Shown here one piece after another: positions 35,754-56,872 of a DNA stretch of 56,872 nucleotides. Positions within the stretch are counted from its first letter, which is position 1, and every line of letters begins with the position of its first letter. The notes under the pieces are model-generated. The model was given only the letters and a program-made list of their open reading frames with translations. It was not told the origin of the DNA and made no database searches. Source of the DNA: Trichodesmium erythraeum GBRTRLIN201 (GTDB lineage: Bacteria > Cyanobacteriota > Cyanobacteriia > Cyanobacteriales > Microcoleaceae); the NCBI GenBank assembly GCA_018457135.1, contig JAGGDU010000025.1, positions 1-56,872 of the forward strand, given 5' to 3'. Both the position numbers and the translations under genes were made by a program.

Positions 35754-38354
35754 TTACACTTGAAACTTAAAATTACGAAGTAGTTTAGTTGCATCCTCAC
35801 CTTCCAATGGTTTTGAGAATAAATATCCTTGTCCTTTGTTACATTGAAGTTTCTTAAGTTTTTGCATTTGAGTTCGAGTTTCTATTCCTTCTGCAATTAT
35901 TTCTAAACCTAAATTATTAGCTAATCCAATAATAGCACCCACAATTTTACAAGTTTGACCACTTGTATCCGAGTCTAATCTACTCACAAAAGACCTATCA
36001 ATTTTAATACTATCAATAGGGAATTGATGTAGATAACTTAATGATGAATAACCTGTACCAAAATCATCAATTAATAATTTAATATTTTTATTTTTCAGTT
36101 TATTCAAAATTTGAGTTGCTAAACTAACATTTTCCATAATTAAAGTTTCAGTTATTTCCAGTTCCAAATAACTAGGTTGACAATTTGTTTCTTCCAAAAT
36201 TGTGTTAATTTCTTCCAATAAATTTGGTTGTGAAAGATGCTTACTAGAAAGATTGACACTCACGGTAAAATTATCAGTAGGAAATTGACAACTAGAATAC
36301 ATACAGCAACCAGAATCATATTTAGTACTACATTCTTGCTGCCAAGTAGTTAACTGATGACAAACAGATCGCAATATCCACATTCCTAAAGGTACAATTA
36401 AACCTGTTTCTTCTGCTAGAGGGATAAATTGTCCTGGATAAATCAAGCCTCTGGTAGGATGAGCCCAACGTAGCAAAGATTCAAAACCAGTAATTATACC
36501 TGTATTTAAACAGATAATTGGTTGGTAATTTAAGATAAATTGAGAATTTACCGGATTTTGTTTAATTATTTCTATTGCCCGTCGTAGATCGTTTTCCAGT
36601 TGTAATAAAGAGATAGCTTCCCTGTGCATTGTCAAATCAAACACCTCATGCCTTGCTTTCCCTAAAGTCTTAGCTCGATACATAGCAATGTCTGCATCTC
36701 GCAGCAAATCTTCCGGCTTGTTGTAAATAGGACAAATAAGGGGATGATTTTCATCAATATCCTCAATAAAATTTCTGCGGTTAGTAACAATACCAATACT
36801 TGCTGTAGTAAATATTTCATTTCCTTCCAAGTAAATTGGTCTAACAAGTTCTTGATGAATTCTCCCAGCTACTTTAGTAGCATCTTGCAAATTAGATGGA
36901 GACTCTAGTAAGATCGTGAATTCGTCTCCTCCTAATCTGGCCAGAGTATCTGAAGCTTTGATACAGTTTTGTAGCCGCTTACTGATCGCTATTAATAGCC
37001 TATCTCCAATAGTATGTCCTAAACTATCATTAATAACTTTAAAGCGATCTAAATCTAGAAAAAGCACATTAAATTGATAGTTTGGTTGTTTTCTAGACCG
37101 ACATAATGCTAATTTTAATCGTTCAAAAAACAATGCTCGGTTTGGTAAACCTGTGAGTGTATCATGAAGTGCATCATAAACAAGTTTAGCCTGTGTTTTT
37201 TTGCGGTGGGTGATATCTTTAAGAATTATCTGTGTTGCTGCTTTCCCATCATAAGTATAAGGTATTCCCAGTATTTCTACATCTATGATTTCTCCATTTA
37301 GTTTAATCAACTTTTCTTCTTGTAAATGTGTTTCCATGCCTTGTTCTTGAACTTGTTGCAGTCGCTGTTTTTCTGTTTCTATAAGCTCTGAAGGAATGAA
37401 TTTCCGAAGTAATTGACCAATGATTTCGTCTGGGCAATTTGCCCCAAATAATTTAGCTCCAGCAGCATTTATATAGACAATTTTTTCCATGTAGTTGACA
37501 GCGATCGCTTCTGGTGAGTTCTTGACCAAACGGTGGTAACGTTCTTCACTTTCTTTGAGTGCTGCCTCTGCCTGTTGGAGTGCAAACTCTTGCGCTCGTT
37601 TTTGTTGAGTTATATCTCTATTAACTCCTATACTTCCAACCATTTGATTCTGTTGATCTAATATTGGTACAACTGTTGTTTCACATATACCCTCACTGCC
37701 ATCTTTGCGAATAAAATTAATTTCTCCTATCCACTTATCATTGACTTTGATCCTTTCTATGATTTCCTTTGTTAACACAGATGCTATTTCTGGTTTGTGT
37801 AAAATAGCTGGACTCTTCCCTAATACCTCAGTTTTACTATAACCAAACATTCGGGTTGCTGCTGAGTTCCAGTCAACGATATTACCCTGAGTATCTGTCA
37901 GAATTACTCCATCGTAGAGATACTCAAAAATTAAAGCTTTTTTTTGCAGTGATCTTTGAATAAGTGTATCTTCCAACGAAGGTGACAAGACAGAAAGTAT
38001 TGCAGTTTCGCCATTGAATTTGATATAAGACATTGATACTTTAGCCCAAAATGGTGTGCCATCTATTTTTTTTAAGTATACCTCGCAATCAAATGTCTGT
38101 TTTTTTTTGGAATTCGGCAGCATAACTTCTCCATAGAAGTTTGCTAACAAAAACTCATATTCTTGAGGGCTAAAGTAAAAATTAGATGTTGGAAAACCGA
38201 TAAAGTTATAATTAGAAAGGCCAAAAATTACTCCCAAAAATTCATTGTGGAAGATAATTATACCATCAACTGCACGACTAATCAATATTGCTGCTGGAAT
38301 TAACTTAGTAAAAATTTCCCATAGTTCTTCAGATTTTTTTTGTATCTTTTCCAT
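35754..38354 (-). CDS. PAS-PAS-PAS-GGDEF-EAL protein (c-di-GMP turnover)
   Basis: 866 aa. Three PAS domains (about 10-120, 135-255, 270-385; GYSKTEVLGKSPAIL is typical), then GGDEF (about 390-555) with the intact active site RLGGDEFTIL near residue 478, then EAL (about 590-860). The EAL signature reads ESLLRW, keeping the catalytic Glu; DDFGTGYSSLSYL, KIDRSF and AEGIET are intact. Both halves could be active, making and degrading cyclic di-GMP. No membrane segment seen, so it is probably cytosolic. No partner gene adjacent. Confidence 0.92.
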   Translation of the reverse strand: MEKIQKKSEELWEIFTKLIPAAILISRAVDGIIIFHNEFLGVIFGLSNYNFIGFPTSNFYFSPQEYEFLLANFYGEVMLPNSKKKQTFDCEVYLKKIDGTPFWAKVSMSYIKFNGETAILSVLSPSLEDTLIQRSLQKKALIFEYLYDGVILTDTQGNIVDWNSAATRMFGYSKTEVLGKSPAILHKPEIASVLTKEIIERIKVNDKWIGEINFIRKDGSEGICETTVVPILDQQNQMVGSIGVNRDITQQKRAQEFALQQAEAALKESEERYHRLVKNSPEAIAVNYMEKIVYINAAGAKLFGANCPDEIIGQLLRKFIPSELIETEKQRLQQVQEQGMETHLQEEKLIKLNGEIIDVEILGIPYTYDGKAATQIILKDITHRKKTQAKLVYDALHDTLTGLPNRALFFERLKLALCRSRKQPNYQFNVLFLDLDRFKVINDSLGHTIGDRLLIAISKRLQNCIKASDTLARLGGDEFTILLESPSNLQDATKVAGRIHQELVRPIYLEGNEIFTTASIGIVTNRRNFIEDIDENHPLICPIYNKPEDLLRDADIAMYRAKTLGKARHEVFDLTMHREAISLLQLENDLRRAIEIIKQNPVNSQFILNYQPIICLNTGIITGFESLLRWAHPTRGLIYPGQFIPLAEETGLIVPLGMWILRSVCHQLTTWQQECSTKYDSGCCMYSSCQFPTDNFTVSVNLSSKHLSQPNLLEEINTILEETNCQPSYLELEITETLIMENVSLATQILNKLKNKNIKLLIDDFGTGYSSLSYLHQFPIDSIKIDRSFVSRLDSDTSGQTCKIVGAIIGLANNLGLEIIAEGIETRTQMQKLKKLQCNKGQGYLFSKPLEGEDATKLLRNFKFQV

Positions 38355-39808: not shown

Positions 39809-42418
39809 ATGTTAGAAAATTATAACAATCAGATCCAACAACGAGCAACCCTAGGTATCCCACCTTTACCACTAGATGCTGAACAAACATCAGACCTATG
39901 TGAACTACTGAAAAGTCCACCGATAGGAACAGAAGAGAAGTTAATGACATTACTACGCTTGCGTGTACCACCAGGAGTAGATGAAGCAGCCTATGTCAAA
40001 GCAGGATTTCTCACAGGTATTGCTAAAGGAGAAATAACCACCCCTCTTATCACCCCCACCTATGCAGTGGAACTATTAGGAACAATGGTTGGTGGTTATA
40101 ATGTCCAATCTCTAATTGACATACTCAAATCGGAAAATTCTGAATTGGCCAGCACAGCAGCTACTGCCCTAAGTAAAATTCTGCTAGTATATGACGCTTT
40201 CAATGACGTGATCAAATTAGGAGAAACCAACCCCTATGCCAAAAAAGTAGTAGACTCTTGGGCAGCAGCAGAATGGTTTACGACTCGGCCCCAACTTCCA
40301 GAAGCGATAACAGTTACCGTCTTCAAAGTCCCAGGTGAAACTAACACCGACGATCTCTCACCAGCTCCCCACGCCACGACTCGTCCCGACATTCCTCTTC
40401 ACGCATTAGCAATGCTAGAGTCAAAAATGCCAGAAGGGTTAAAGACAATTGCGCAATTAAAGCAAAAAGGTCATCCAGTAGCTTATGTTGGAGATATTGT
40501 GGGTACAGGTTCATCCCGTAAATCTGCCTGTAACTCCATGCTGTGGCATATTGGGGAAGATATTCCTTTCATTCCCAATAAACGTTCTGGTGGTTATATT
40601 CTGGGAGGTAAAATTGCTCCTATTTTCTTCAACACTGCAGAAGACTCCGGCGCACTACCGATCGAATGCGATGTCACAAAAATGGAGACAGGCATGGTCA
40701 TAACTATCTATCCCTACAAAGGAGAAATTATCAACGAAGCAGGAGAAATAATTTCCACCTTTACCCTAAAACCAGAAACTATGTTAGACGAAGTTAGAGC
40801 CGGAGGGCGGATACCTCTATTAATTGGGCGTACTCTGACTGACAAAACTCGTAATATTCTAGGGTTAGAAACCAGTTCTGTATTTACTCGTCCCCAACTA
40901 CCAACAGACACAGGTAAAGGTTTCACCTTGGCACAGAAAATGGTAGGTAAAGCTTGTGGTTTAGCAGGCATTCGACCCGGTACTGCTTGCGAGCCATTGA
41001 TGACAACAGTGGGTTCTCAGGATACTACAGGACCAATGACCAGGGACGAAATGAAAGAACTTGCTTGCCTTGGTTTCAGCGCTGATTTAGTTATGCAGAG
41101 TTTTTGTCATACTGCTGCCTATCCCAAACCAGTTGATATTAACACTCATAAAGAATTACCAGATTTCTTTTCTGCTCGGGGTGGGGTAGCGTTGCGTCCT
41201 GGAGATGGAATTATTCATTCTTGGTTAAACCGAATGTTGTTACCGGATACAGTGGGAACAGGAGGTGATTCTCATACCCGTTTTCCTCTGGGAATTTCTT
41301 TCCCTGCGGGTTCTGGTTTGGTAGCATTTGCAGCCGCTCTAGGTTTGATGCCATTGGATATGCCAGAATCTGTTTTGGTGAGATTTAAGGGTGAGTTACA
41401 ACCAGGGGTAACACTACGAGATATTGTGAATGCTATTCCCTATGTAGCGATTCAAAAAGGGTTGTTGACTGTAGCTCTGGAGAACAAGAAAAATGTCTTT
41501 TCCGGACGAATTATGGAAATGGAAGGTTTGCCATATTTGAAGGTTGAGCAGGCATTTGAATTAACGGATGCGACGGCGGAACGTTCCTGTGCTGGTTCCA
41601 CAATTAAGTTGGGTGCGGAGACAATTTCTGAGTATTTGCGTTCTAATGTTACTTTGTTAAAGAATATGGTAGCACGGGGTTATCAGGATACACGAACAAT
41701 TATGCGTCGGGTTTCTAAGATGGAGCAATGGTTGGCAAATCCAAAGTTGATGTCAGCAGATGCGAATGCGGAGTATGCAGAAATTATTGAAGTAGATTTG
41801 AATGAGATCAAGGAACCTATTGTGGCGGCACCCAATGACCCCGATAATATTAAATTGATGTCCGAATGTGCGGGGGATAAAATTGATGAAGTATTTATCG
41901 GTTCTTGCATGACAAATATTGGTCACTATCGCGCTGCTGCGAAAGTATTGGAAGGTGCAGGACGAGTTAAGGGTGTATTGTGGATATGTCCACCTACTCG
42001 CATGGATGAGAAACAGTTACGGGAGGAAGGAATATACGGTGTCTTTGCTGCTGCTGGTGCGCGGATGGAAATGCCAGGATGTTCTTTGTGTATGGGAAAT
42101 CAGGCACGGGTTAAAAACGGGGTGACAGTGTTTTCGACTTCGACCAGGAATTTTAATAACCGTATGGGTAAAGGTGCTCGTGTGTATTTGGGTTCTGCAG
42201 AATTAGCGGCGGTGTGTGCGCTGTTAGGGCGAATACCTAGTGTGGATGAGTATTTGGATATTATGAAGGAGAAAGTAGATCCCTTTGCGGGTGATTTGTA
42301 TCGGTATTTGAATTTCGATCAAATTGCTGGTTTTGAGGACGAAGGTCGAGTGGTCAGTTTGGACGAGATGCCTAACACTGAGGATATTTTGGAAACGCCA
42401 GTTGTTGTGGCTAAGTAG
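39809..42418 (+). CDS. acnB: Aconitate hydratase B
   Basis: Interconverts citrate and isocitrate via cis-aconitate in the TCA cycle (869 aa); AcnB-type enzymes often also handle 2-methylisocitrate. N-terminal HEAT-like helical domain (TLGIPPLPLDAEQTSDL), then the swivel domain (NTDDLSPAPHATTRPDIP, GDIVGTGSSRKSACNSM) placed before the catalytic core, as is specific for AcnB. [4Fe-4S] ligands: Cys in FIGSCMTNIGHY (about residue 700) and the pair in PGCSLCMGNQ (about 758/761). AAGGAC precedes ATG 39809. It stands as a single gene. Confidence 0.97.
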   Translation: MLENYNNQIQQRATLGIPPLPLDAEQTSDLCELLKSPPIGTEEKLMTLLRLRVPPGVDEAAYVKAGFLTGIAKGEITTPLITPTYAVELLGTMVGGYNVQSLIDILKSENSELASTAATALSKILLVYDAFNDVIKLGETNPYAKKVVDSWAAAEWFTTRPQLPEAITVTVFKVPGETNTDDLSPAPHATTRPDIPLHALAMLESKMPEGLKTIAQLKQKGHPVAYVGDIVGTGSSRKSACNSMLWHIGEDIPFIPNKRSGGYILGGKIAPIFFNTAEDSGALPIECDVTKMETGMVITIYPYKGEIINEAGEIISTFTLKPETMLDEVRAGGRIPLLIGRTLTDKTRNILGLETSSVFTRPQLPTDTGKGFTLAQKMVGKACGLAGIRPGTACEPLMTTVGSQDTTGPMTRDEMKELACLGFSADLVMQSFCHTAAYPKPVDINTHKELPDFFSARGGVALRPGDGIIHSWLNRMLLPDTVGTGGDSHTRFPLGISFPAGSGLVAFAAALGLMPLDMPESVLVRFKGELQPGVTLRDIVNAIPYVAIQKGLLTVALENKKNVFSGRIMEMEGLPYLKVEQAFELTDATAERSCAGSTIKLGAETISEYLRSNVTLLKNMVARGYQDTRTIMRRVSKMEQWLANPKLMSADANAEYAEIIEVDLNEIKEPIVAAPNDPDNIKLMSECAGDKIDEVFIGSCMTNIGHYRAAAKVLEGAGRVKGVLWICPPTRMDEKQLREEGIYGVFAAAGARMEMPGCSLCMGNQARVKNGVTVFSTSTRNFNNRMGKGARVYLGSAELAAVCALLGRIPSVDEYLDIMKEKVDPFAGDLYRYLNFDQIAGFEDEGRVVSLDEMPNTEDILETPVVVAK

Positions 42419-42472: not shown

Positions 42473-42732
42473 CTATACTTTAAGAGTTAATTTGGGAAAG
42501 TATTTACCAACAGTAAGTAATTTCTGTCTTTCAACTTCTACGCTTGAGCAGTTTTTTTTAGTGATTTTACAAAATATTCACTAACGGCAAGTAATTTCGG
42601 TCCTTCAACTTCTACCCTTGAGGAGTTTTCTCTAACAAAAACTTTCTCACCTATAAAAGAAACACTTGTTTGAGGGGGAATAGTTATCCTAATTACAGAA
42701 AAATTTTTATCGCATATAGTATCAATTTTCAT
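42473..42732 (-). pseudogene. Small AlbA_2-like fragment with a repeat and a homopolymer frameshift
   Basis: ATG 42732 gives 64 aa (to 42538): VIRITIPPQTSVSF, VFVRENSSRVEVEGPKLL, resembling the Schlafen/AlbA_2 tail (beta-strand-IPP..G..FYVR). The last part then repeats in DNA with a shift (about 42475-42558). Adding one A to the A8 run near 42549-42556 would continue the frame as NCSSVEVERQKLLTVGKYF to a stop at 42473. So either a truncated gene or a slippage-prone one. Similarity to AlbA_2 is moderate; function unknown. Confidence 0.4.
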
Positions 42733-43045
42733 TAAAACTTGAGTTTTTAATAGTTCAGTAAGTTGAAAATTTCTGATGGAGTTGATTAGTATCTCAATAT
42801 ATTTTTATAAGGTTTTATTCTGCTGTTTAGCTTTTCTATCAATTCCGACAATATACTTTTAATATATTTAAATTTGATGTAGATGTATCTGACTCATCTT
42901 TCTTCTGTAAAAAAAACTCTTTTATTGCTTAATTAAATAAGAACTCTTCCATTGCATTTCAAGGATTTGTTTCGTGTTTCCTGATTTAGTGCCTATTTCC
43001 CAAGCAATTCTCGACCAAGCTTTAGTGCCAAGATAAATCATACCA
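42733..43045. other. Intergenic, no gene seen
   Basis: Lies between the AlbA_2-like fragment and the stop of the first cyclase gene. Nothing recognised. Confidence 0.4.
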
Positions 43046-44278
43046 TTACTTCTGAGTAAATGCCCAAACCCCATTCCAATTTTTGGGTACACCAGTTACC
43101 ATTAAATCATCAATTCTTTCCAGATAAAGTTGAGCTGTTTTATCTGAAGAATTAACGGCTAATACTTTCTCAAAATAATCTTTAGCATCAACTAACTCTC
43201 CTACACGATAAGACTCCAAACCTAATGCAAAATCTACCTGAGTTTGTAATTTTAACTCTCGTATCTCATCAACTTCACCATCAAGAACTTCATAAACATT
43301 AATCGGTTCATCTATACCCTTAACAGATGCCCGGTCTAAAAACCTAATTTGATATTTCTGCGGATTTTTTAAATAGTTAAAAGCTGACTCAGAAATTAAT
43401 AAAGAAACACCATAAAACTTAGTCAAACCTTCCAAACGAGCTGTCAAATTCACATTATTAGAAAATGCATCTCCTGACATCCGACCCTTTTCTCCAACTA
43501 TGCCTACCATAATGTGACCCCAATGAATACCAATTCCAATTTTTATAGGCATCCAACCTGTAGATAATAGAAACTGATTATATTCCTGTAATCTTTTGAG
43601 TTGAGCAATAGCTGCCTCCAATGCATCATCAGCTCCATCTGGAAATACTGCCATAATACCATCTCCCAGAAATTTAATAATCAAACCGTTGCGATCGCGA
43701 ATTTCTGGACAAACCTCCTTTAAATAACCATTCACAAAAGCAAAAGTTTCTTGAGAAGTCATCTGCTCAGATATAGTCGTAAAAGAGCGAATATCAGAAA
43801 AGAAAATTGCCATTTCAGTACTAACTCGATCCCCTAGTTTAACATTAATAATGCTTTCTTTTGAGAGTAACTCAACATATTCGTGGGGAACAAAACGCTC
43901 GTAAGCTTTAGTGATTTTTGATAATTTAATATGAGTTTGAATCCGGGTTAATAACTCATCTTTAGCAAAAGGTTTAGTTAAATAATCATTAGCACCAAAT
44001 TGGAAACCCATAACTAAATCAGCAATTTGATTTTTAGCTGTTAACATTAACACAGGTAAACTTTGGGCCGGATATTTTTCTCTAATTTGAGAGCATACCT
44101 CATAACCAGACATATTTGGCATCATTACATCTAGCAAAATTAAGTCAAAATTATGATTATTCTCCAAAGCCGCCAAAGCTTCTTTTCCACTTAATGCCTG
44201 GGTAACTTGATAATTATTGGCTTTGAGGTAATTGTTTAAAACTTGAATATTTATCGGTTCATCATCAACAACTAAAAT
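43044..44278. repeat. Near-identical 1.23-kb segment, copy 1
   Basis: Direct repeat with 46694-47928 at a constant offset of 3650 bp. I see differences only at 43088, 43103 and 43149, near the stop codon, then none up to about 44277, where similarity drops abruptly at the receiver-domain start. Covers receiver, cyclase and tail. Confidence 0.95.
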
Positions 44279-46438
44279 ATGGAAATTACCATTATTCGGG
44301 ATTAGATGATTTTCATTTTTGTTAATATCTACGGATGTTTCTACTCCTTCAATAAGATTATTAACATTTTTAAGGGAGAAAGAATGCACAGGTTCTTTAG
44401 AAATATTCAGAGTAAAAGTAAACTCTGAACCAACACCAGGATTAGATTTTACCGAAATAGTACCACCGTGTAATTCAACTAATTGTTTGGTTATTGGCAA
44501 ACCTAAACCCGTTCCACCATATCGACGTTCTGTAGATCCATCTCCTTGTTCAAAAGATGCAAAAATTGCCTCATGTTTATCTTCAGGGATACCAATACCA
44601 GTGTCAGAGACAGTAATTGCCATTTTTGGATTGTTCTTAAGGTCAATTAATTCTGCTGAAATCGTTATTACACCGACCTCCGTAAATTTGATAGCATTTC
44701 CCACCAAATTATGCATAATTTGCTGAATGCGATTTTCATCTGCTTCCACAGGTGGTAAATCTGATGAAATAGCATTAATAAGCTGTACATCTTTCTCCTT
44801 TAAAATAATCCGAGAAAAGGTGAGAACTACTTCAGTAACTTCTCGCATTCCTACTGAAGACATTTTTAGTTTGATGCTGTGGTGACGTAGTTTGGAAAAA
44901 TCAAGAATATCATTGACCAAGTTGGCTAAACGATGTCCACTAACAACAATCATTGATAGATTCTTGTTTTGCAATTCGGAGATATTACCGGTAGCACCAT
45001 CCATCATGGATTCTGCTATGCCAATTATTCCATTTAGAGGTGTACGCAGTTCATGGGATGTATTGGCTAAAAATTCATCTTTAAGTTGGTCTAAGTGTTG
45101 CAACTCTTGATTTTTTCTTTCTAGATGATTAAATGATTCTGCTAACTCTTTTGTCATTTTATTAAAAGATTCAGCTAAAATCACCAACTCTTTGAATCCT
45201 TGAATTGATACATTTTGATTAATTTCTCCATGAGAAATTGCGTAAGCTGCTGTTGATAATTTTTTAATTGATTTAGTGATCCAATTCACTATTAATAGCC
45301 CTAAACCTGAAGCTATTGCCAAAGCTAAAATACATAATCGAATAGTTGATTTAGTATTTTCGTTTATTTGTGCCATAAATTCATTTTCTGGGATGACTAC
45401 TACTGTCAACCAATGAAGACCATGTTTATCCTTATAAGGTGAAACTTGCATAAATATTTTTTCACCATCTTGAATAAAATTAAGTTTTTTTGTCGTCTCA
45501 ATTTGACTGAGGTTTTTGTATTGTTCTATCAAATATTGTGTTGCTGATTTTATTAGTTGATTATTACTATCTATGGCTTTTTGAAAGCCTAATTTATCTT
45601 TGTCTTCTACTACAGAACTTGCTATGAGAATACCTTTGTTATTTAAAATAAAAGCTTCTCCAGTATCACCAATTTCTATAGTTTTGAGAAATAGACTTAG
45701 TTCTTCAGAGAAGAAAATATCAACACCACATATTACTTTGAGATTGTTTTCGCGATCATATACTGGCAAAGTAGCAGTAATTGTAAGCTTTCCAGTGGCA
45801 AAGTCTTTGTAAATTTCACTCCATGTCGCTTTACCTGCAGATTCACCTGCTTGATACCAGGGACGATTTCGAGAATCAAATTTTTTAGAGCCTTGTATAA
45901 CTAAATTTGTCATATTACCTTGGCTATCTAGAGCATATTCATAACGGAAAAAATTAGTTAATTCATTACTAAAAGCCAGCCACAACATATCATTTTTTCC
46001 TAACCTTTGTTCTCCCATATATTCACTTTTTTGAGGTAGTCTTGTTACTCCCATATATTCACCTTTTTCAGGACTACCACAATAAATCCATTGAATTGAC
46101 TTAAACAAATTCATTTGTAGCCAAAAAAGACCTTGACCTCGGACTGGAAATATGCTCAGATTATCTTCGTTAATAGCATAAGCAGTTAATTGATTAATCT
46201 GATGAGGGATTTGTAAATAGTTATCTACTTCTCGAACGATATGAATAGCAACTTGTTTACGCAATTTACTAGCTAGGGCATTGATAGCTTTCTGTCCATT
46301 GCGAAAAGATAACCATCCCGTTAATCCGACTACAATCAAAAGCTGCAAGAGGAAAGGAATAACTAAGAAGTATGTTAAAGGTATTTCTTCTAAAAAGTTG
46401 GTTTTCTTATTTAATTGCTTGAGAGATTTTTTTGCCAC
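43046..46438 (-). CDS. Cache-HAMP-histidine kinase-receiver-adenylate cyclase hybrid, copy 1
   Basis: 1130 aa, CyaC-like but membrane-bound. TM1 about 19-41, extracellular dCache-type sensor, TM2 about 363-387, HAMP. Histidine kinase: phospho-His in NTSHELRTPLNGI (near 462), then NLVGNAIKFT, DTGIGIPED and GGTGLGLPITK. Receiver: LVVDDEP, LLDVMMPN (Asp near 771), TAKN, KPF. Class III cyclase: FFSDIRSFT (near 880), FLGDGIMAVFPD, GDAFSNNVNLTARLEG; then a short TPR-like tail. Likely senses an external ligand and makes cAMP through internal phospho-relay (inference). Starts at GTG 46438. The 3' 1.2 kb matches copy 2 almost perfectly. Confidence 0.93.
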   Translation of the reverse strand: MAKKSLKQLNKKTNFLEEIPLTYFLVIPFLLQLLIVVGLTGWLSFRNGQKAINALASKLRKQVAIHIVREVDNYLQIPHQINQLTAYAINEDNLSIFPVRGQGLFWLQMNLFKSIQWIYCGSPEKGEYMGVTRLPQKSEYMGEQRLGKNDMLWLAFSNELTNFFRYEYALDSQGNMTNLVIQGSKKFDSRNRPWYQAGESAGKATWSEIYKDFATGKLTITATLPVYDRENNLKVICGVDIFFSEELSLFLKTIEIGDTGEAFILNNKGILIASSVVEDKDKLGFQKAIDSNNQLIKSATQYLIEQYKNLSQIETTKKLNFIQDGEKIFMQVSPYKDKHGLHWLTVVVIPENEFMAQINENTKSTIRLCILALAIASGLGLLIVNWITKSIKKLSTAAYAISHGEINQNVSIQGFKELVILAESFNKMTKELAESFNHLERKNQELQHLDQLKDEFLANTSHELRTPLNGIIGIAESMMDGATGNISELQNKNLSMIVVSGHRLANLVNDILDFSKLRHHSIKLKMSSVGMREVTEVVLTFSRIILKEKDVQLINAISSDLPPVEADENRIQQIMHNLVGNAIKFTEVGVITISAELIDLKNNPKMAITVSDTGIGIPEDKHEAIFASFEQGDGSTERRYGGTGLGLPITKQLVELHGGTISVKSNPGVGSEFTFTLNISKEPVHSFSLKNVNNLIEGVETSVDINKNENHLIPNNGNFHILVVDDEPINIQVLNNYLKANNYQVTQALSGKEALAALENNHNFDLILLDVMMPNMSGYEVCSQIREKYPAQSLPVLMLTAKNQIADLVMGFQFGANDYLTKPFAKDELLTRIQTHIKLSKITKAYERFVPHEYVELLSKESIINVKLGDRVSTEMAIFFSDIRSFTTISEQMTSQETFAFVNGYLKEVCPEIRDRNGLIIKFLGDGIMAVFPDGADDALEAAIAQLKRLQEYNQFLLSTGWMPIKIGIGIHWGHIMVGIVGEKGRMSGDAFSNNVNLTARLEGLTKFYGVSLLISESAFNYLKNPQKYQIRFLDRASVKGIDEPINVYEVLDGEVDEIRELKLQTQVDFALGLESYRVGELVDAKDYFEKVLAVNSSDKTAQLYLERIDDLMVTGVPKNWNGVWAFTQK

Positions 46439-46695
46439 GGAAAGTAATCCTGAATAATATCCAATTTTTCTGTTTTTTTACAAAACTTACGCACTAATCT
46501 TAAATTATACACTATTTTGATTTGTAGAGAATAATAGGATAACGAACCTAAAAACTATCTTTTAGAATACAATTAAGGATAATAAGGAGAGGTAGTAATT
46601 AATTATTAATTAATAATAAAATCTTTGTACTATAAGCATATTGCCTAGTGTTTTCCAGATTAAGAACCTTATAGTTTAATTTCTATAATTTAACA
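46439..46695. other. Spacer between the two cyclase genes
   Basis: 257 bp, AT-rich, containing AAACTTACGCACTA (46483-46496), like an end of the MITE-type elements. Not shared with the other flank of either gene. Confidence 0.45.
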
Positions 46696-47928
46696 TTACT
46701 TCTGAGTAAATGCCCAAACCCCATTCCAATTTTTGGGCACACCAGTTACCATCAAATCATCAATTCTTTCCAGATAAAGTTGAGCTGTTTTATCTGAATA
46801 ATTAACGGCTAATACTTTCTCAAAATAATCTTTAGCATCAACTAACTCTCCTACACGATAAGACTCCAAACCTAATGCAAAATCTACCTGAGTTTGTAAT
46901 TTTAACTCTCGTATCTCATCAACTTCACCATCAAGAACTTCATAAACATTAATCGGTTCATCTATACCCTTAACAGATGCCCGGTCTAAAAACCTAATTT
47001 GATATTTCTGCGGATTTTTTAAATAGTTAAAAGCTGACTCAGAAATTAATAAAGAAACACCATAAAACTTAGTCAAACCTTCCAAACGAGCTGTCAAATT
47101 CACATTATTAGAAAATGCATCTCCTGACATCCGACCCTTTTCTCCAACTATGCCTACCATAATGTGACCCCAATGAATACCAATTCCAATTTTTATAGGC
47201 ATCCAACCTGTAGATAATAGAAACTGATTATATTCCTGTAATCTTTTGAGTTGAGCAATAGCTGCCTCCAATGCATCATCAGCTCCATCTGGAAATACTG
47301 CCATAATACCATCTCCCAGAAATTTAATAATCAAACCGTTGCGATCGCGAATTTCTGGACAAACCTCCTTTAAATAACCATTCACAAAAGCAAAAGTTTC
47401 TTGAGAAGTCATCTGCTCAGATATAGTCGTAAAAGAGCGAATATCAGAAAAGAAAATTGCCATTTCAGTACTAACTCGATCCCCTAGTTTAACATTAATA
47501 ATGCTTTCTTTTGAGAGTAACTCAACATATTCGTGGGGAACAAAACGCTCGTAAGCTTTAGTGATTTTTGATAATTTAATATGAGTTTGAATCCGGGTTA
47601 ATAACTCATCTTTAGCAAAAGGTTTAGTTAAATAATCATTAGCACCAAATTGGAAACCCATAACTAAATCAGCAATTTGATTTTTAGCTGTTAACATTAA
47701 CACAGGTAAACTTTGGGCCGGATATTTTTCTCTAATTTGAGAGCATACCTCATAACCAGACATATTTGGCATCATTACATCTAGCAAAATTAAGTCAAAA
47801 TTATGATTATTCTCCAAAGCCGCCAAAGCTTCTTTTCCACTTAATGCCTGGGTAACTTGATAATTATTGGCTTTGAGGTAATTGTTTAAAACTTGAATAT
47901 TTATCGGTTCATCATCAACAACTAAAAC
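46694..47928. repeat. Near-identical 1.23-kb segment, copy 2
   Basis: Partner of 43044-44278; same orientation. See that entry. Confidence 0.95.
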
Positions 47929-50097
47929 GTGGAAATCACCATTAGGTATTTTACTTCCTAGGGGTTTACTCCTGATAGTTGTTTCTATGTTCTTGATCAG
48001 ATAGTGAATATTATTAACAGTAGGACTAGGAAAATTTAAAGAGGAATTAGGTACGAGTTGATTAGATATGGGTAAGGTCACGTTAAACCGGGAACCTACA
48101 CCAACTTCAGACTCAACCCAAATACGACCGCCTTGGAGTTCTACTAATTCTTTGGTGACAGCCAAACCTAAACCTGTACCGCCGTATTTTCTTATAATTG
48201 AACCTTCTCCTTGTTCAAAAGATTCAAAGATACGATCTAGTTGATCAGGGGGAATACCGATACCAGTATCAGATACCATGATAATAATTTCAGTGGCTTC
48301 ATCTTGATCTTCTTTAGGGGAGTAGAGGGAAGCAGAGATTTCGACTTTCCCAGATTCAGTGAATTTGATAGCATTGGCAATTAAATTATAGAGTATCTGT
48401 TGTAGACGGTTTTCATCAGCTAAAACGGGGGGTAAGTCTGTCGGTATAGCATTTGTTAATTGCAGATTTTTGTTTTTGCCAACTAATACTCTATTTAGGG
48501 TGATAACTGATTCAACGACTATCCTAACATCAATGGCTCTGACTTGTAATTCTAATTTGTGGTATCTAATTTTAGAAAAGTCGAGAATATCGTTGACGAG
48601 GTTGGAGAGACGACGAGCACTAGAAACTATTATGGCTAAGTTAGAGGTAGTTATAGAGTTTAAATTTTTAGTGTTTTCTTCTAGTAGAAATTCTCCAATA
48701 CCGATAATACCATTTAGTGGGGTGCGGAGTTCGTGGGAGGTATTGGCAAGAAATTCATCTTTAAGGCGATCTAGTTCTGTGAGTTGTTTATTTTGGGCTT
48801 CTAGGGTTTCAAAGGATTTCTTGAGCTGGCTTGCCATCTGATCAAAGGAGTTGGCCAGTTCCCCTAATTCATCTTCGCGATAAATTTTGAGTTGGGTTTC
48901 CCATTTTCCTTGAGAAATTTCTTTGGCAGCAGAATTAAGTTGTAAGATAGGCTTGGTTATCCAGTTAGTGGTGACTATTCCTAATAATACGGTTATTGTC
49001 AAGGCAGCAAAACTTAATAGAATAGTAGTACGAATGTTCATATTGACTTTTTCCATGAAGTCATCTTCAGGAATAACTACTACTGCTAGCCAATTAATAC
49101 CTCGTCCGTCTATTACTGGTATAACACTAGCATAGTACCATTCTTCTTCAATAGGAAAATTCATTTCGTGAGTGTGAGTAATTTCGGCAAAACTACTAAA
49201 CTTTTGTTGTAGATGTTTTGTCGTCATGCTTACTATCTTATTCTCACTAGCAGTGGCGGGTAGGCGTTCTATTTTTCGATTTTCCTGAGTTCCTTTAATT
49301 ACAAAAGGCTCCATAACCTCGGAAGAAGCAATTAAGTTTCCCGATCGTTCGATAATGAAACTTTGACCGTTGGGACTAATGTATAAGTTTTTGAGGAAAT
49401 TTGTGAGTTTGACCAGGGTGGTTTTGTTTGAGAGAACTCCTAATAAATTCTCTGTTGAGTCAAAAATAGGTTGAACTGCGAAGATGTCGAGGGAGCTATT
49501 TTGACCAGAAAATGAGGACAAAATTGGACTCCAGGTGGGCTCGCCTAATTTTTTTGCTACTAAATACCAGGGAGTATCCCGGGGGTCGTACTCTTTGCTG
49601 TTTAAATATTGGCTAATGTTACCTTGATTATTAAGCAGATAAGTTTCGCAAAGGCTTTGGGTAGGGATTTTACAACTTTTTAGGTAAATTTCTCCTTCTG
49701 CGAAATGTTCGACGCCAATAAATTCTCCTTCTTCGTTGCCAAAGAATAAATAATCCTGTAAATCTTTTTCTTTTACGACTTCCCAAAAGTATCGCCTGAG
49801 TGCGACAAAATTATAGATGTCTAAGTTTGCACTTTCTATAGCATCATTAGTGATCCTCAGAACTTGATGAGATTGATTTAAATATCCCAAAACGTGCTGT
49901 TGAATGCGATCGCTAATTTTGTTAGTTAGCTTTTTGCCCAAATCATCAACGGTTTGTTGCCCATTCAGAAAAGCTATATATCCTAATGCTCCAAAAGCAC
50001 CAAGAATTTGGATAACATAGGGTACTATTAAAATAGTTTTTAAAGAAAGCTTACTAAATATTCTACCCAGGTTTAGGGACAAAGATTTAAATGCCAT
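46696..50097 (-). CDS. Cache-HAMP-histidine kinase-receiver-adenylate cyclase hybrid, copy 2
   Basis: 1133 aa with the same layout as copy 1: TM1 about 18-45, dCache sensor (SKEYDPRDTPWYLVAKKLGEPTWSPI-type segment), TM2, HAMP (WITKPILQLNSAAKEI), kinase (phospho-His in SHELRTPLNGI near 454; DTGIGIPPDQ; GGTGLGLAVTK), receiver (Asp near 774) and class III cyclase. Sensor and kinase are clearly diverged from copy 1, whereas receiver plus cyclase differ by one residue (NYSD versus NSSD) and two silent changes. So two different inputs probably feed the same output. ATG 50097. Head-to-tail with copy 1, 257 bp apart. Confidence 0.93.
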   Translation of the reverse strand: MAFKSLSLNLGRIFSKLSLKTILIVPYVIQILGAFGALGYIAFLNGQQTVDDLGKKLTNKISDRIQQHVLGYLNQSHQVLRITNDAIESANLDIYNFVALRRYFWEVVKEKDLQDYLFFGNEEGEFIGVEHFAEGEIYLKSCKIPTQSLCETYLLNNQGNISQYLNSKEYDPRDTPWYLVAKKLGEPTWSPILSSFSGQNSSLDIFAVQPIFDSTENLLGVLSNKTTLVKLTNFLKNLYISPNGQSFIIERSGNLIASSEVMEPFVIKGTQENRKIERLPATASENKIVSMTTKHLQQKFSSFAEITHTHEMNFPIEEEWYYASVIPVIDGRGINWLAVVVIPEDDFMEKVNMNIRTTILLSFAALTITVLLGIVTTNWITKPILQLNSAAKEISQGKWETQLKIYREDELGELANSFDQMASQLKKSFETLEAQNKQLTELDRLKDEFLANTSHELRTPLNGIIGIGEFLLEENTKNLNSITTSNLAIIVSSARRLSNLVNDILDFSKIRYHKLELQVRAIDVRIVVESVITLNRVLVGKNKNLQLTNAIPTDLPPVLADENRLQQILYNLIANAIKFTESGKVEISASLYSPKEDQDEATEIIIMVSDTGIGIPPDQLDRIFESFEQGEGSIIRKYGGTGLGLAVTKELVELQGGRIWVESEVGVGSRFNVTLPISNQLVPNSSLNFPSPTVNNIHYLIKNIETTIRSKPLGSKIPNGDFHVLVVDDEPINIQVLNNYLKANNYQVTQALSGKEALAALENNHNFDLILLDVMMPNMSGYEVCSQIREKYPAQSLPVLMLTAKNQIADLVMGFQFGANDYLTKPFAKDELLTRIQTHIKLSKITKAYERFVPHEYVELLSKESIINVKLGDRVSTEMAIFFSDIRSFTTISEQMTSQETFAFVNGYLKEVCPEIRDRNGLIIKFLGDGIMAVFPDGADDALEAAIAQLKRLQEYNQFLLSTGWMPIKIGIGIHWGHIMVGIVGEKGRMSGDAFSNNVNLTARLEGLTKFYGVSLLISESAFNYLKNPQKYQIRFLDRASVKGIDEPINVYEVLDGEVDEIRELKLQTQVDFALGLESYRVGELVDAKDYFEKVLAVNYSDKTAQLYLERIDDLMVTGVPKNWNGVWAFTQK

Positions 50098-50753: not shown

Positions 50754-52817
50754 ATGGAAACACTTTATCAATATGCCTGGCTAATTCCAGTACTGCCGCT
50801 ACTGGGAGCAACCTTAGTTGGCTTTGGCCTAATTTCCTATAGCCGAGCCACAAGTAATTTACGACAGGGAGCCGCAATATTTATTGTCTCTCTGTTGGGA
50901 ACTGCAATGGTTTTATCCTTTGCATTGCTCTGGAGCCAAATAAATGGCCATGAAATCTATACCCAAATGTTTGAGTGGGCAGCAGCAGGTGACTTCAAGC
51001 TCAGTATGGGCTACACCATCGATCACTTGACTGCCCTCATGTTAGTCATAGTCACTACCGTTGCCTTCTTGGTAATGGTCTACACAGATGGCTACATGGC
51101 TCACGATCCTGGATATGTACGCTTTTACGCTTACTTGAGCTTATTTAGCTCCTCAATGTTAGGTCTAGTAATTTCTCCAAACCTAGTCCAAATTTATATT
51201 TTCTGGGAACTTGTTGGTGTATCCTCATACCTACTAATTGGTTTCTGGTACGACCGTAAAGCAGCAGCAGAAGCCTGTCAAAAAGCTTTTGTTGTCAACC
51301 GTGTCGGTGACTTTGGTTTACTCCTGGGAATGCTAGGAATTTACTGGGCCACTGGTACCTTTGAATTTGAGGCTATGGGTCTTCGCTTGGAGCAACTAGT
51401 AGAAACAGGAGCCCTAAGCATTGGTTTAGCTACCCTTTTCGGTGTCTTAGTTTTCCTAGGACCTGTAGCTAAGTCAGCCCAATTCCCACTGCATGTTTGG
51501 TTGCCCGACGCAATGGAAGGCCCGACTCCAATTTCTGCCCTGATCCACGCAGCAACGATGGTAGCTGCTGGAGTATTCCTAATTGCCCGGATGTATCCAG
51601 TATTTGAACATCTGCCAGTGGTAATGGATATTATCGCTTGGACGGGAGCCTTTACAGCTTTTCTGGGGGCAACGATCGCTATTACTCAAAATGATATTAA
51701 AAAAGGTCTGGCCTATTCGACTATTTCCCAGTTGGGCTACATGGTAATGGCAATGGGTGTGGGTGCTTATAGCGCTGGACTATTTCACCTAATGACCCAT
51801 GCTTATTTCAAAGCTATGCTGTTCCTCTGTTCTGGTTCTGTAATTCATGGAATGGAGGCAGTGGTTGGCCATAATCCAGTTTTGGCTCAAGATATGCGGT
51901 TAATGGGTGGACTCAGGAAATATATGCCTATTACCTCTACTTGCTTTTTAATTGGTACTGTGGCAATTTGTGGTATCCCTCCCTTTGCAGGTTTTTGGTC
52001 AAAAGATGAAATTTTAGGCAGTGCCTTTGGAGCAAACCCAGCTTTATGGTTCATTGGTTGGGCAACTGCTGGCATGACTGCTTTTTATATGTTCCGTATG
52101 TATTTCTCTACTTTTGAAGGAGAATTTAGGGGTAATAACACAAAAATTAAGGATCAATTATTGCTGGCAAATGCTGCACCCCTGATGGAACTTAGCCCTG
52201 GGGCTATAGCTCCCAAAGAGTTGGAAAATGGCCATGATAGCCATGACCACGACCATGATCATAGCCACTCTCCCCATGAGTCTCCTGTGAGCATGACTCT
52301 ACCATTAATGGTTTTGGCAATTCCTTCGATGGTTATTGGTTTATTGGGAACACCTTTTGCTAATTATTTTGAACAGTTTATTTATGCTCCTGGAGAGTCT
52401 TTGGCACAAGTCCTGGAGGAGTTGGCAGAGTTTGAGCTTAATGAATTTTTGATTATGGCGGGTAACTCTGTTGGTATTGCTTTAATTGGTATTACCTTTG
52501 CTTCACTTATGTATTTGAGTCATAAAATTGACCCAGATGCGATCGCTAAAAAAATCCCATCTCTCTACAACTTTTCCCTCAACAAATGGTATCTAGATAA
52601 TATCAACGATTTTCTATTTGTTAAAGGTAGTCGTCGTCTAGCACGGCAAGTTTTGGAAGTGGACTACAAGATAGTTGATGGAGCTGTTAACTTGACAGGC
52701 TTTATTACCCTATTGAGTGGGGAAGGTTTGAAGTATTTAGAAAATGGTCGAGCTCAGTTTTATGCCTTAATTGTATTTGTGGCAGTTTTGGGCTTCGTTG
52801 TTTTCTCTGGTGCCTAG
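50754..52817 (+). CDS. ndhF: NAD(P)H-quinone oxidoreductase subunit 5
   Basis: 687-aa proton-pumping antiporter-like subunit of thylakoid NDH-1, in respiration and cyclic electron flow. Family landmarks: YAWLIPVLPLLGA, FYAYLSLFSSSMLGLV, WELVGVSSYLLIGFWYDR, KSAQFPLHVWLPDAMEGPTPISALIHAATMV-type core (Lys and His of the proton path) and a C-terminal part with the long lateral helix. A histidine-rich hydrophilic loop HDSHDHDHDHSHSPHES is at about residues 494-510. Followed by ndhD on the same strand, the usual NdhF1/NdhD1 pair. Confidence 0.97.
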   Translation: METLYQYAWLIPVLPLLGATLVGFGLISYSRATSNLRQGAAIFIVSLLGTAMVLSFALLWSQINGHEIYTQMFEWAAAGDFKLSMGYTIDHLTALMLVIVTTVAFLVMVYTDGYMAHDPGYVRFYAYLSLFSSSMLGLVISPNLVQIYIFWELVGVSSYLLIGFWYDRKAAAEACQKAFVVNRVGDFGLLLGMLGIYWATGTFEFEAMGLRLEQLVETGALSIGLATLFGVLVFLGPVAKSAQFPLHVWLPDAMEGPTPISALIHAATMVAAGVFLIARMYPVFEHLPVVMDIIAWTGAFTAFLGATIAITQNDIKKGLAYSTISQLGYMVMAMGVGAYSAGLFHLMTHAYFKAMLFLCSGSVIHGMEAVVGHNPVLAQDMRLMGGLRKYMPITSTCFLIGTVAICGIPPFAGFWSKDEILGSAFGANPALWFIGWATAGMTAFYMFRMYFSTFEGEFRGNNTKIKDQLLLANAAPLMELSPGAIAPKELENGHDSHDHDHDHSHSPHESPVSMTLPLMVLAIPSMVIGLLGTPFANYFEQFIYAPGESLAQVLEELAEFELNEFLIMAGNSVGIALIGITFASLMYLSHKIDPDAIAKKIPSLYNFSLNKWYLDNINDFLFVKGSRRLARQVLEVDYKIVDGAVNLTGFITLLSGEGLKYLENGRAQFYALIVFVAVLGFVVFSGA

Positions 52818-55641: not shown

Positions 55642-56872
55642 CTAATTAATAATATTAATACTCAAATTATAATCAGTCCGACCGCTTCCGACTGGGAAAA
55701 CTTTCAAATAATAAACACCAGGATCTAGAATAACTTGAATTTTCTCTGTTGCAAAACCCTCCTTATTTGACTGGTTAAGTAGACTCCCATCTTTATCATA
55801 CAATTTAATTCCCAGATCCTGCACAAAACTATCTACAAAAACACTGACTAAACCTTCTTTTTCTACCTCAAAAGAGAAATAATCTTCTGTATTACGGTCG
55901 ACCGGTCCAGTTGCAAACCCAATATCATCAACCCTGGAAGTTTGTTCTGAAGACAGAATTCCTAGATCTACAGGGTTTTTAATATCCTCTGGCGCTGAGT
56001 TGTTTTGAATAATACCGACTGCTTTGGCATCTGATAACTTACCATTTTTAGCGCCGCTGAGTTTCACTTGAAATTTCTCATCCTTTTCATCAACAGTATC
56101 TCCCAAAATACTAACATTTACTGTCTTTTTGGTCTCCCCTGGTTGGAATTTCAGGACTCCCTTTTTCTTCAGATAATCTTTTCCTGACTTCGCGCTACCG
56201 TCAACGGTCTCATAATTAACTTTCACTACTTCACTGCTACTATTATCTAACTTGACCTCAAACTTCATGTTTTTCTCTCCCTGTTGTCCTTCAGTAATTT
56301 TGGCATCCCTGATGGATATTTGGGTTTCGTCGTTATCAATAATTCTGCCGACGGCTGTTTTATCTGACAACTTACCATTTCTGGCACGGCTGAGTTTGAC
56401 TTGAAACTGCTCGTTATTTTCATCAACCCGATCTCCCACAATGGGAATATTCACTATCTTTTTCCTCTGCCCTGGTTGGAATGTCACCACTCCCCTTTTA
56501 TTTTGAAAATCTTTTCCTGACTTGGCGCTGCCATCTACTGTGGCGTAATTTACCCTCACTGTTTTCGTGCTCGGGTTGTTGAGCTCGACTTCAAACTTCA
56601 TCTGTTTCTTACCCCTGTTTCCTTCCGTCACTTTGGCATCCCTGATGGATATTTGGGGTAATGTTTCGTCGTTATCAATAATTCTGCCGACTGCTGTTTT
56701 ATCTGACAATTTTCCATTTCTGGCACGGCTGAGTTTGACTTGAAACTCCTCGTTATTTTCATCAACCCTATCTCCCAAAATGGGAATATTCACTATCTTT
56801 TCCGTCTGCCCTGGCTTGAATGTCAGGACTCCCCTTTGATTTCGAAAATCTTTTCCTGACTTGGCGCTGCCC
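55642..56872 (-). CDS. Calx-beta repeat protein, C-terminal part (runs off the window)
   Basis: Stop at 55642; open to the right edge, so only the C-terminal ~410 aa are seen. Units of 111-113 aa (GDRVDENNEEFQVKLSRA, DKTAVGRIIDNDET, ITEG..., VNYATVDGSAKSGKDF, GVVTFQPGQ) are Calx-beta domains, calcium-binding beta-sandwiches. The last ~110 residues form the pre-peptidase-like end domain (DYFSFEVEKEG, ILDPGVYYLKVFPVGSGRTDY), matching the FG-GAP protein at 32.6 kb. Probably secreted or surface-bound. Neighbouring repeat units are also near-identical in DNA, for example around 56330-56510 versus 56680-56872. Confidence 0.9.
   Translation of the reverse strand, partial: GSAKSGKDFRNQRGVLTFKPGQTEKIVNIPILGDRVDENNEEFQVKLSRARNGKLSDKTAVGRIIDNDETLPQISIRDAKVTEGNRGKKQMKFEVELNNPSTKTVRVNYATVDGSAKSGKDFQNKRGVVTFQPGQRKKIVNIPIVGDRVDENNEQFQVKLSRARNGKLSDKTAVGRIIDNDETQISIRDAKITEGQQGEKNMKFEVKLDNSSSEVVKVNYETVDGSAKSGKDYLKKKGVLKFQPGETKKTVNVSILGDTVDEKDEKFQVKLSGAKNGKLSDAKAVGIIQNNSAPEDIKNPVDLGILSSEQTSRVDDIGFATGPVDRNTEDYFSFEVEKEGLVSVFVDSFVQDLGIKLYDKDGSLLNQSNKEGFATEKIQVILDPGVYYLKVFPVGSGRTDYNLSINIIN

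Follow-up and report, generated by a model that had tools for sequence, protein, structure and literature searches.

How two neighbouring genes with diverged sensory fronts came to carry an almost identical output half is the question raised by a 56,872-base contig of the Trichodesmium erythraeum GBRTRLIN201 genome (JAGGDU010000025.1; the whole stretch analysed is referred to as the window, and is cyanobacterial by its relatives). The two genes, here called A and B, lie in tandem on the minus strand, flanked by acnB and ndhF (Table 1), and both proteins matched the Pfam families HAMP, HisKA, HATPase_c, Response_reg and Guanylate_cyc, as well as dCache_1, in B just below the cut-off. The reading favoured here, at a probability of about 0.74, is that A captured its sensor-kinase front from another gene family, that A's receiver-cyclase module was later copied over B's by gene conversion, and that the two proteins would couple different sensed ligands to cyclic AMP (cAMP) synthesis. 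The genome under study is designated G000 and its relatives G001 to G050.

Extent of the identical output tract

At an offset of 3650 bp, the A and B copies matched from 43041 to about 44294, across receiver, cyclase and tail, as an initial annotation made from the letters of the window had described. Mismatches occurred at 43043 (past the stop codon), 43088, 43103 and 43149; none was found through 44277, three followed at 44278, 44279 and 44287, and they became dense from 44295. The three in-gene mismatches near the stop (two silent, one Ser/Tyr) lay at distances of 42, 57 and 103 bp from the final stop-codon base (43046), and the 1128 bp beyond them were mismatch-free, in line with the earlier count of three differences followed by some 1.13 kb with none. 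When the A/B match pattern was shuffled 2000 times, no run was longer than 43 bp, compared to 1128 bp in the real pair.

The border was sharp (44278-44295) and fell, where it had been placed at the outset, in the codons of the first receiver strand (HILVVDDE versus HVLVVDDE); it is the point where close similarity between A and B stops. DNA identity between the two genes was 48.3% in the sensor, 59.5% in the kinase and 99.5% in the module. A block of near-identity, silent sites included, that is sharply bordered within diverged paralogues is a signature of gene conversion. Beyond A and B, a DNA search of the same genome with the 1249-base module gave, with 40 of 112 initial candidates scored, four matches (67% over 426 bases, 70% over 230, 68% over 182 and 89% over 36).

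Gene A as a chimera of two families

The sensor and kinase halves had been described as only paralogous, which holds for A against B but overlooks a third gene. C179, located on another contig of G000, is the best own-genome relative of A's front half, and not B, with protein identities of 71% in the sensor and 86% in the kinase (84.7% and 90.8% in DNA). DNA identity of A to C179 was 55.6% in the module, and the receiver and cyclase of C179 shared only 39% protein identity with the A/B module. Along A, sliding identity to C179 (150-base segments) stayed at 80-99% through the segment starting at nucleotide (nt) 1876, was 69% in the next and 52% from nt 2026, and identity to B reached 100% from nt 2176 of A. 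The linker of A, compared by eye, was unlike both that of C179 and that of B. As the 27-43 bases before A's start were also C179-like (blastn), the captured piece began shortly upstream of the start codon and reached roughly to where the ATPase domain ends.

Since its front is of C179 type while its linker, receiver and cyclase come from B's family, A is a chimera of two gene families. It would have been born by the joining of a C179-type sensor-kinase half to an array-type linker, receiver and cyclase, before the lineages of G000 and G005 parted. Module shuffling, which had been offered as one source of the tract, did therefore occur, but the capture of the C179-type front is a separate and older event than the homogenisation of the modules.

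Relatives carry traces of this history. The B-then-A order is independently present in G005, which holds the same chimera (DNA identity of A to its counterpart G005_A of 92.2% in the sensor, 94.2% in the kinase and 92.9% in the module). G005_A is preceded by about 79 bases of related upstream sequence and by a B remnant (L036, 8085-8640), a deletion pseudogene that lacks a large part of the gene, changes frame and contains an in-frame stop. The synonymous divergence (dS) of A's front was 0.256 to C179 and 0.175 to G005_A, values that accord with an origin predating the split of the G000 and G005 lineages. In 14 comparisons with G004, G005 or G006, six further signalling genes gave dS of 0.16-0.39 and nonsynonymous to synonymous ratios (dN/dS) of 0.20-0.50, and ndhF, ndhD and acnB compared with G005 or G006 gave dS of 0.42-0.54 and dN/dS of 0.05-0.09; between G000 and G004-G006, the signalling genes thus show lower dS yet much higher dN/dS than these three.

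The B gene of G006 (L037, 8610-11208) has an internal deletion and a frame change, and B is accordingly broken in both sister genomes where a copy was found. No A was found in G006 at E 1e-150, and no B-type gene was seen in G004, whose genome is 81% complete. The proposal that two inputs are kept locked to one cAMP output, as a conserved state, is not supported, given the broken B of G005 and G006 and the 57-88% identity of same-genome module pairs in relatives.

The direct repeats had also been expected to recombine into a single chimeric gene, and no such product was demonstrated. The single gene of G006 has the downstream flank of G005_A, which suggested a repeat-by-repeat deletion, but its markers are rather B-like in the 311 bases with a B-lineage reference (6 sites plus 3, versus 3); they are not decisive for the origin of this gene. 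In G000 acnB (39809-42418) adjoins the array, and in G005 and G006 it lies on contigs other than that of the array gene, so the flank of A differs among genomes.

Probable gene conversion of the module

The tract is flanked on either side by a single site (44279 and 43103) where A carries the state of G005_A and B that of G006_B, with outgroups mixed at both sites. In the trees, the front of B grouped with G006_B (support 99) and its module with A and G005_A (99-100). The tree of the block thus conflicts with that of its flank, as expected of gene conversion, and forcing the B module to group with G006_B was rejected by the approximately unbiased (AU) test (p-AU 0.009). The dS values conflict in the same way: the front and module of A were equally distant from G005 (0.175 and 0.171), whereas the front of B was 0.489 from G006 and the module, measured on A's copy, 0.217. 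B retains its own linker type up to the tract. A lineage marker on each side, the tree conflict and the dS conflict together support the earlier suggestion of gene conversion of the output module.

Homologous exchange between the neighbours, by way of recombination machinery, would have overwritten B's module with A's recently in the G000 lineage. It would have been confined to the conserved module, the front halves being no longer alike; in our opinion, this is because the two fronts are too dissimilar for recombination. The modules of G000, G005 and G006 form one clade (support 100; 84 shared derived sites) and did so before the conversion, so that earlier sharing, or a duplication of the module at the birth of A, is needed as well.

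Direction of exchange and alternative explanations

The conversion probably ran from A to B, and several points weigh against this or against the reading as a whole. G000, G005 and G006 branch almost as a star (G000 joins G006 with support 81), and grouping with G005_A is therefore by itself no proof of the donor. Shared-site counts are modest: over the module, 15 sites are shared with G005_A, 10 with G006_B and 8 unite G005_A and G006_B; the corresponding counts are 15, 7 and 7 inside the tract, and 18, 8 and 13 with another outgroup set. Two of the six A/B module differences carry lineage states, with outgroups mixed, and the other four are private to one copy in the clade. The broken G006_B gene may evolve at a raised rate. 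Within the clade's module, the receiver half and the cyclase half have different nearest neighbours, making its deeper history uncertain, and the p-AU values of the 14 topology tests are uncorrected for their number. Finally, sparse differences inside a repeat could have been lost from the draft assembly, which comprises 241 contigs and 7.22 Mb.

Copying of B's module over A's, or exchange in both directions, is unlikely. It would gain from the small number of informative sites on which the direction rests, from the near-star species tree and from the receiver half, which groups weakly with G001_3 (95), a relative of B's front. However, the front and module of A lie at an equal dS from G005_A, and in the trees the module falls with G005_A instead of G006_B. 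An older swap in B, before G000 and G006 split, is a lead only. Forcing the B module to group with its front class (the class names for fronts and modules are our own coinage) was rejected (p-AU 0.008; 0.002 without G001_3), and forcing it with G001_3 alone was not (p-AU 0.34). When the module was split post hoc, the receiver half grouped with G001_3 (94-95), although the AU test does not discriminate (front class 0.27), and the cyclase half did not group with G001_3 (p-AU 0.016; front class 0.003).

It is improbable that the identity was created by assembly, with cellular modules that differ being merged into one consensus through repeat collapse or gap filling. The differences are indeed confined to the vicinity of the repeat ends, a pattern also expected from collapse. 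In a collapse model where only differences isolated by k bases are hidden (random placement in 1128 bp, with k assumed and not taken from the assembler), the chance that all of 5, 8 or 10 differences are isolated was 0.19, 0.0125 and 0.0005 at k = 55, and 0.42, 0.10 and 0.03 at k = 31; a few scattered differences could thus be hidden, but hardly several percent. In addition, the A module already differs from that of G005_A (dS 0.171), and the B-then-A order recurs in G005. A search for 16S rRNA found none in G000, from which nothing is concluded, the same search having missed 5 of 14 control genomes, including Synechococcus elongatus.

A recent tandem duplication of the whole gene, after which the sensors diverged rapidly, would account for the tandem layout and the equal domain order, but it was dropped as scarcely credible, because the identity step sits at a domain boundary and the front of A belongs to another family (85-91% DNA identity to C179). 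Equally remote is strong protein selection that keeps the modules identical without exchange: although conservation is higher in the module than in the front of each pair compared, the absence of any silent difference in 1128 bp refutes it, much as the initial annotation had argued, provided the assembly is correct, while the modules of A and G005_A differ at silent sites (dS 0.171) and same-genome modules in relatives are just 57-88% identical.

Sensor-cyclase arrays in relatives

Of the 61 genomes of the family, 54 held a match to B with an E value of 1e-200 or lower (paralogues counted), and array-type genes in relatives were single or in groups of two or three. For G001 and G046-G050, modules within the same genome were 82.0-88.5% identical in DNA (14 pairs) and sensors 68-80% (12 pairs measured). 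The longest identical run in these 14 pairs, some of them on separate contigs, was 312 bp in one pair, 90 and 80 bp in two, and at most 59 bp in the other 11.

The run of 312 identical bases belongs to Okeania sp. SIO2C9 (G047; L152), between copy 1 (12571-12260) and copy 2 (8862-8551, by offset), and stops 22 bases short of the module end. Within it, copy 2 was 98.4% identical to G046_1 and 84.6% to G046_2, and the preceding 911 module bases were 96.5% identical to G046_2. This tract is clearly an independent conversion in the same module. In Okeania sp. SIO3B5 (G050), the front of one gene belongs to class 2 (p-AU 0.02 when forced into class 3) and its module to class 3 (p-AU 1e-6 when forced into class 2). 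Most of the kinase is missing from the third array gene of G046 (L151, 3399-6041), in which the kinase match ends at segment position 130 and the module match begins at 39.

In other genera of the family, 13 loci were fetched as a subset of the tandem matches; 12 of them yielded 26 module pairs, 57-82% identical and with no run above 69 bp, and the 13th had one module only. The run lengths in the 14 same-genome and 26 other-genera pairs rule out that all arrays are homogenised. On the other side, five of the 26 pairs had runs of 38-69 bp that none of 1000 shuffles reached, and whole-gene shuffles never reached runs of 50, 59 and 80 bp in relatives' pairs; these shuffles ignore uneven conservation, and small conversions in relatives' arrays are possible. 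The short runs indicate that homogenisation is occasional and not the rule. One genome titled Trichodesmium sp. (G009; L041) was placed in another genus of the family.

More speculatively, sensor-cyclase arrays may be a standing site of exchange, where new inputs are captured onto a shared module and the modules of neighbours are at times overwritten. The receiver-cyclase module would stay recombinable and the fronts would not, so that different inputs could be re-coupled to one cyclase. This doubtful generalisation is compatible with the chimera in A, the recent A/B tract, the 312-bp tract of Okeania SIO2C9, and the class-2 front and class-3 module in Okeania SIO3B5.

Predicted function

The dCache domain of A and that of B would each bind a different extracellular ligand and control its own kinase, which would phosphorylate its own receiver; the receiver would in turn set cAMP synthesis by the identical cyclase. 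The dCache_1 score was 50.3 bits in A and 43.5 bits in B, just below the cut-off of 45, and Pfam found a single Response_reg stretch per protein. SHELRTPL, FSDIRSFT, FLGDGIMA and NLTARLE occur in A and B alike, and are presumably phospho-acceptor and class III cyclase motifs. The cyclase matched solved class III adenylate cyclases, among them CyaB (3r5g), 2w01, 1wc0 (E 3.6e-15) and 1wc1 (4e-15). cAMP is the predicted product, under putative phosphotransfer control.

The amino-acid motif of dCache_1AA domains comprises an Arg (R126 of PctA), Trp-Tyr and a late Asp, positions taken in part from PMC10104139. The sensor of A (FDSRNRPWY...Y...GVD) fits save for Phe in place of the first Tyr, and that of B (YDPRDTPWY) has Thr in place of the key Arg and no late Asp. 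G006_B, a relative of B, keeps the key Arg. As the pocket of A looks amino-acid-like and that of B does not, A and B probably read different ligands and give the same output.

Comparison with known systems

The A/B locus is explained by known processes, domain capture and gene conversion, and is not a new kind of system. Tlp2, Tlp3 and Tlp4 of Campylobacter jejuni are described as dCache_1 paralogues whose signalling domains are identical and whose sensory regions share about 30% identity, with losses through pseudogenes (PMC9769880), and recombination among Tlps is reported (PMC6433261). As in A and B, the same output is joined there to different dCache sensors; in contrast, the Tlps are chemoreceptors without kinase or cyclase, the available passages map no conversion tract, and the front of A was captured from a family with a different output.

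Domain shuffling in two-component systems is described in PMC4603909 as occasional, with loss followed by gain thought likelier than direct shuffling. A resembles such cases in being a front-half swap between two families, and differs in that G000 itself encodes a close relative of the donor and the joint is traceable to the linker.

Like CyaC-type enzymes, A and B combine HisKA, HATPase, receiver and class III cyclase in a single polypeptide, and the structures 1wc0 and 1wc1 are taken to be those of CyaC. CyaC has a further N-terminal receiver and no dCache domain, whereas A and B lack a second, N-terminal receiver and are membrane sensors with dCache and HAMP. In open-licence PMC literature, the titles and abstract openings of the matches listed (for some searches the best 10-15 of up to 51) held nothing on A/B or on gene conversion in cyanobacterial cyclases.

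The locus offers a natural case of signalling rewiring that can be read stepwise: a sensor-kinase half changed its output, with the joint in the linker, and one neighbour then probably received a copy of the other's output half. Its value lies in the clarity of these steps and in the replicate tract. The joints of natural chimeras mark where sensor kinases tolerate swaps, and trees of whole multi-domain receptors should be read with caution, as they blend histories.

Genomic context

Among the 13 relatives considered, ndhF was beside an array-type gene in G003, G005, G006, G009, G010, G046, G047 and G050. In G001, G002, G007, G048 and G049 it was absent from the stretch that had been fetched.

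Table 1. Features of the sensor-cyclase locus, in positions of the window.
Feature	Position	Strand	Details and basis
Gene A, chimeric: dCache-HAMP-HisKA-HATPase-receiver-class III cyclase	43046-46438	-	1130 aa, GTG start; open reading frame (ORF), Pfam, C179-like front, orthologue in G005
Shared-module end with three mismatches (43088, 43103, 43149)	43046-43149	-	A = G005_A and B = G006_B at 43103
Identical tract, copy in A: receiver, cyclase, most of tail	43150-44277	-	1128 bp mismatch-free; permutation
Linker of A, similar to array genes G003_1, G001_1 and G002_1	44295-44383	-	linkers compared by eye
Captured sensor-kinase front of A, C179-type, residues 1-685	44384-46438	-	identity to C179, sliding identity, match end at residue 685
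A-B intergenic region	46439-46695	.	blastn: 27-43 bases adjoining A similar to C179-type upstream; about 79 similar to G005 upstream of A
Gene B, domain order as A, pair member adjoining ndhF	46696-50097	-	1133 aa, ATG start; ORF, Pfam, front tree with G006_B and G001_3
Identical tract, copy in B	46800-47927	-	offset 3650
ndhF	50754-52817	+	also beside array-type gene in 8 of 13 relatives

A direct repeat at 42490-42634, in the stretch from acnB to the end of gene A, consists of two copies of about 71 bp that are 80% alike. Pfam also identified a PAS-GGDEF-EAL protein near the cyclase genes (35754-38354), and two proteins that are perhaps surface-exposed or secreted, one with FG-GAP and Calx-beta domains (32651-35326) and one with Calx-beta and PPC domains (55642-56793).

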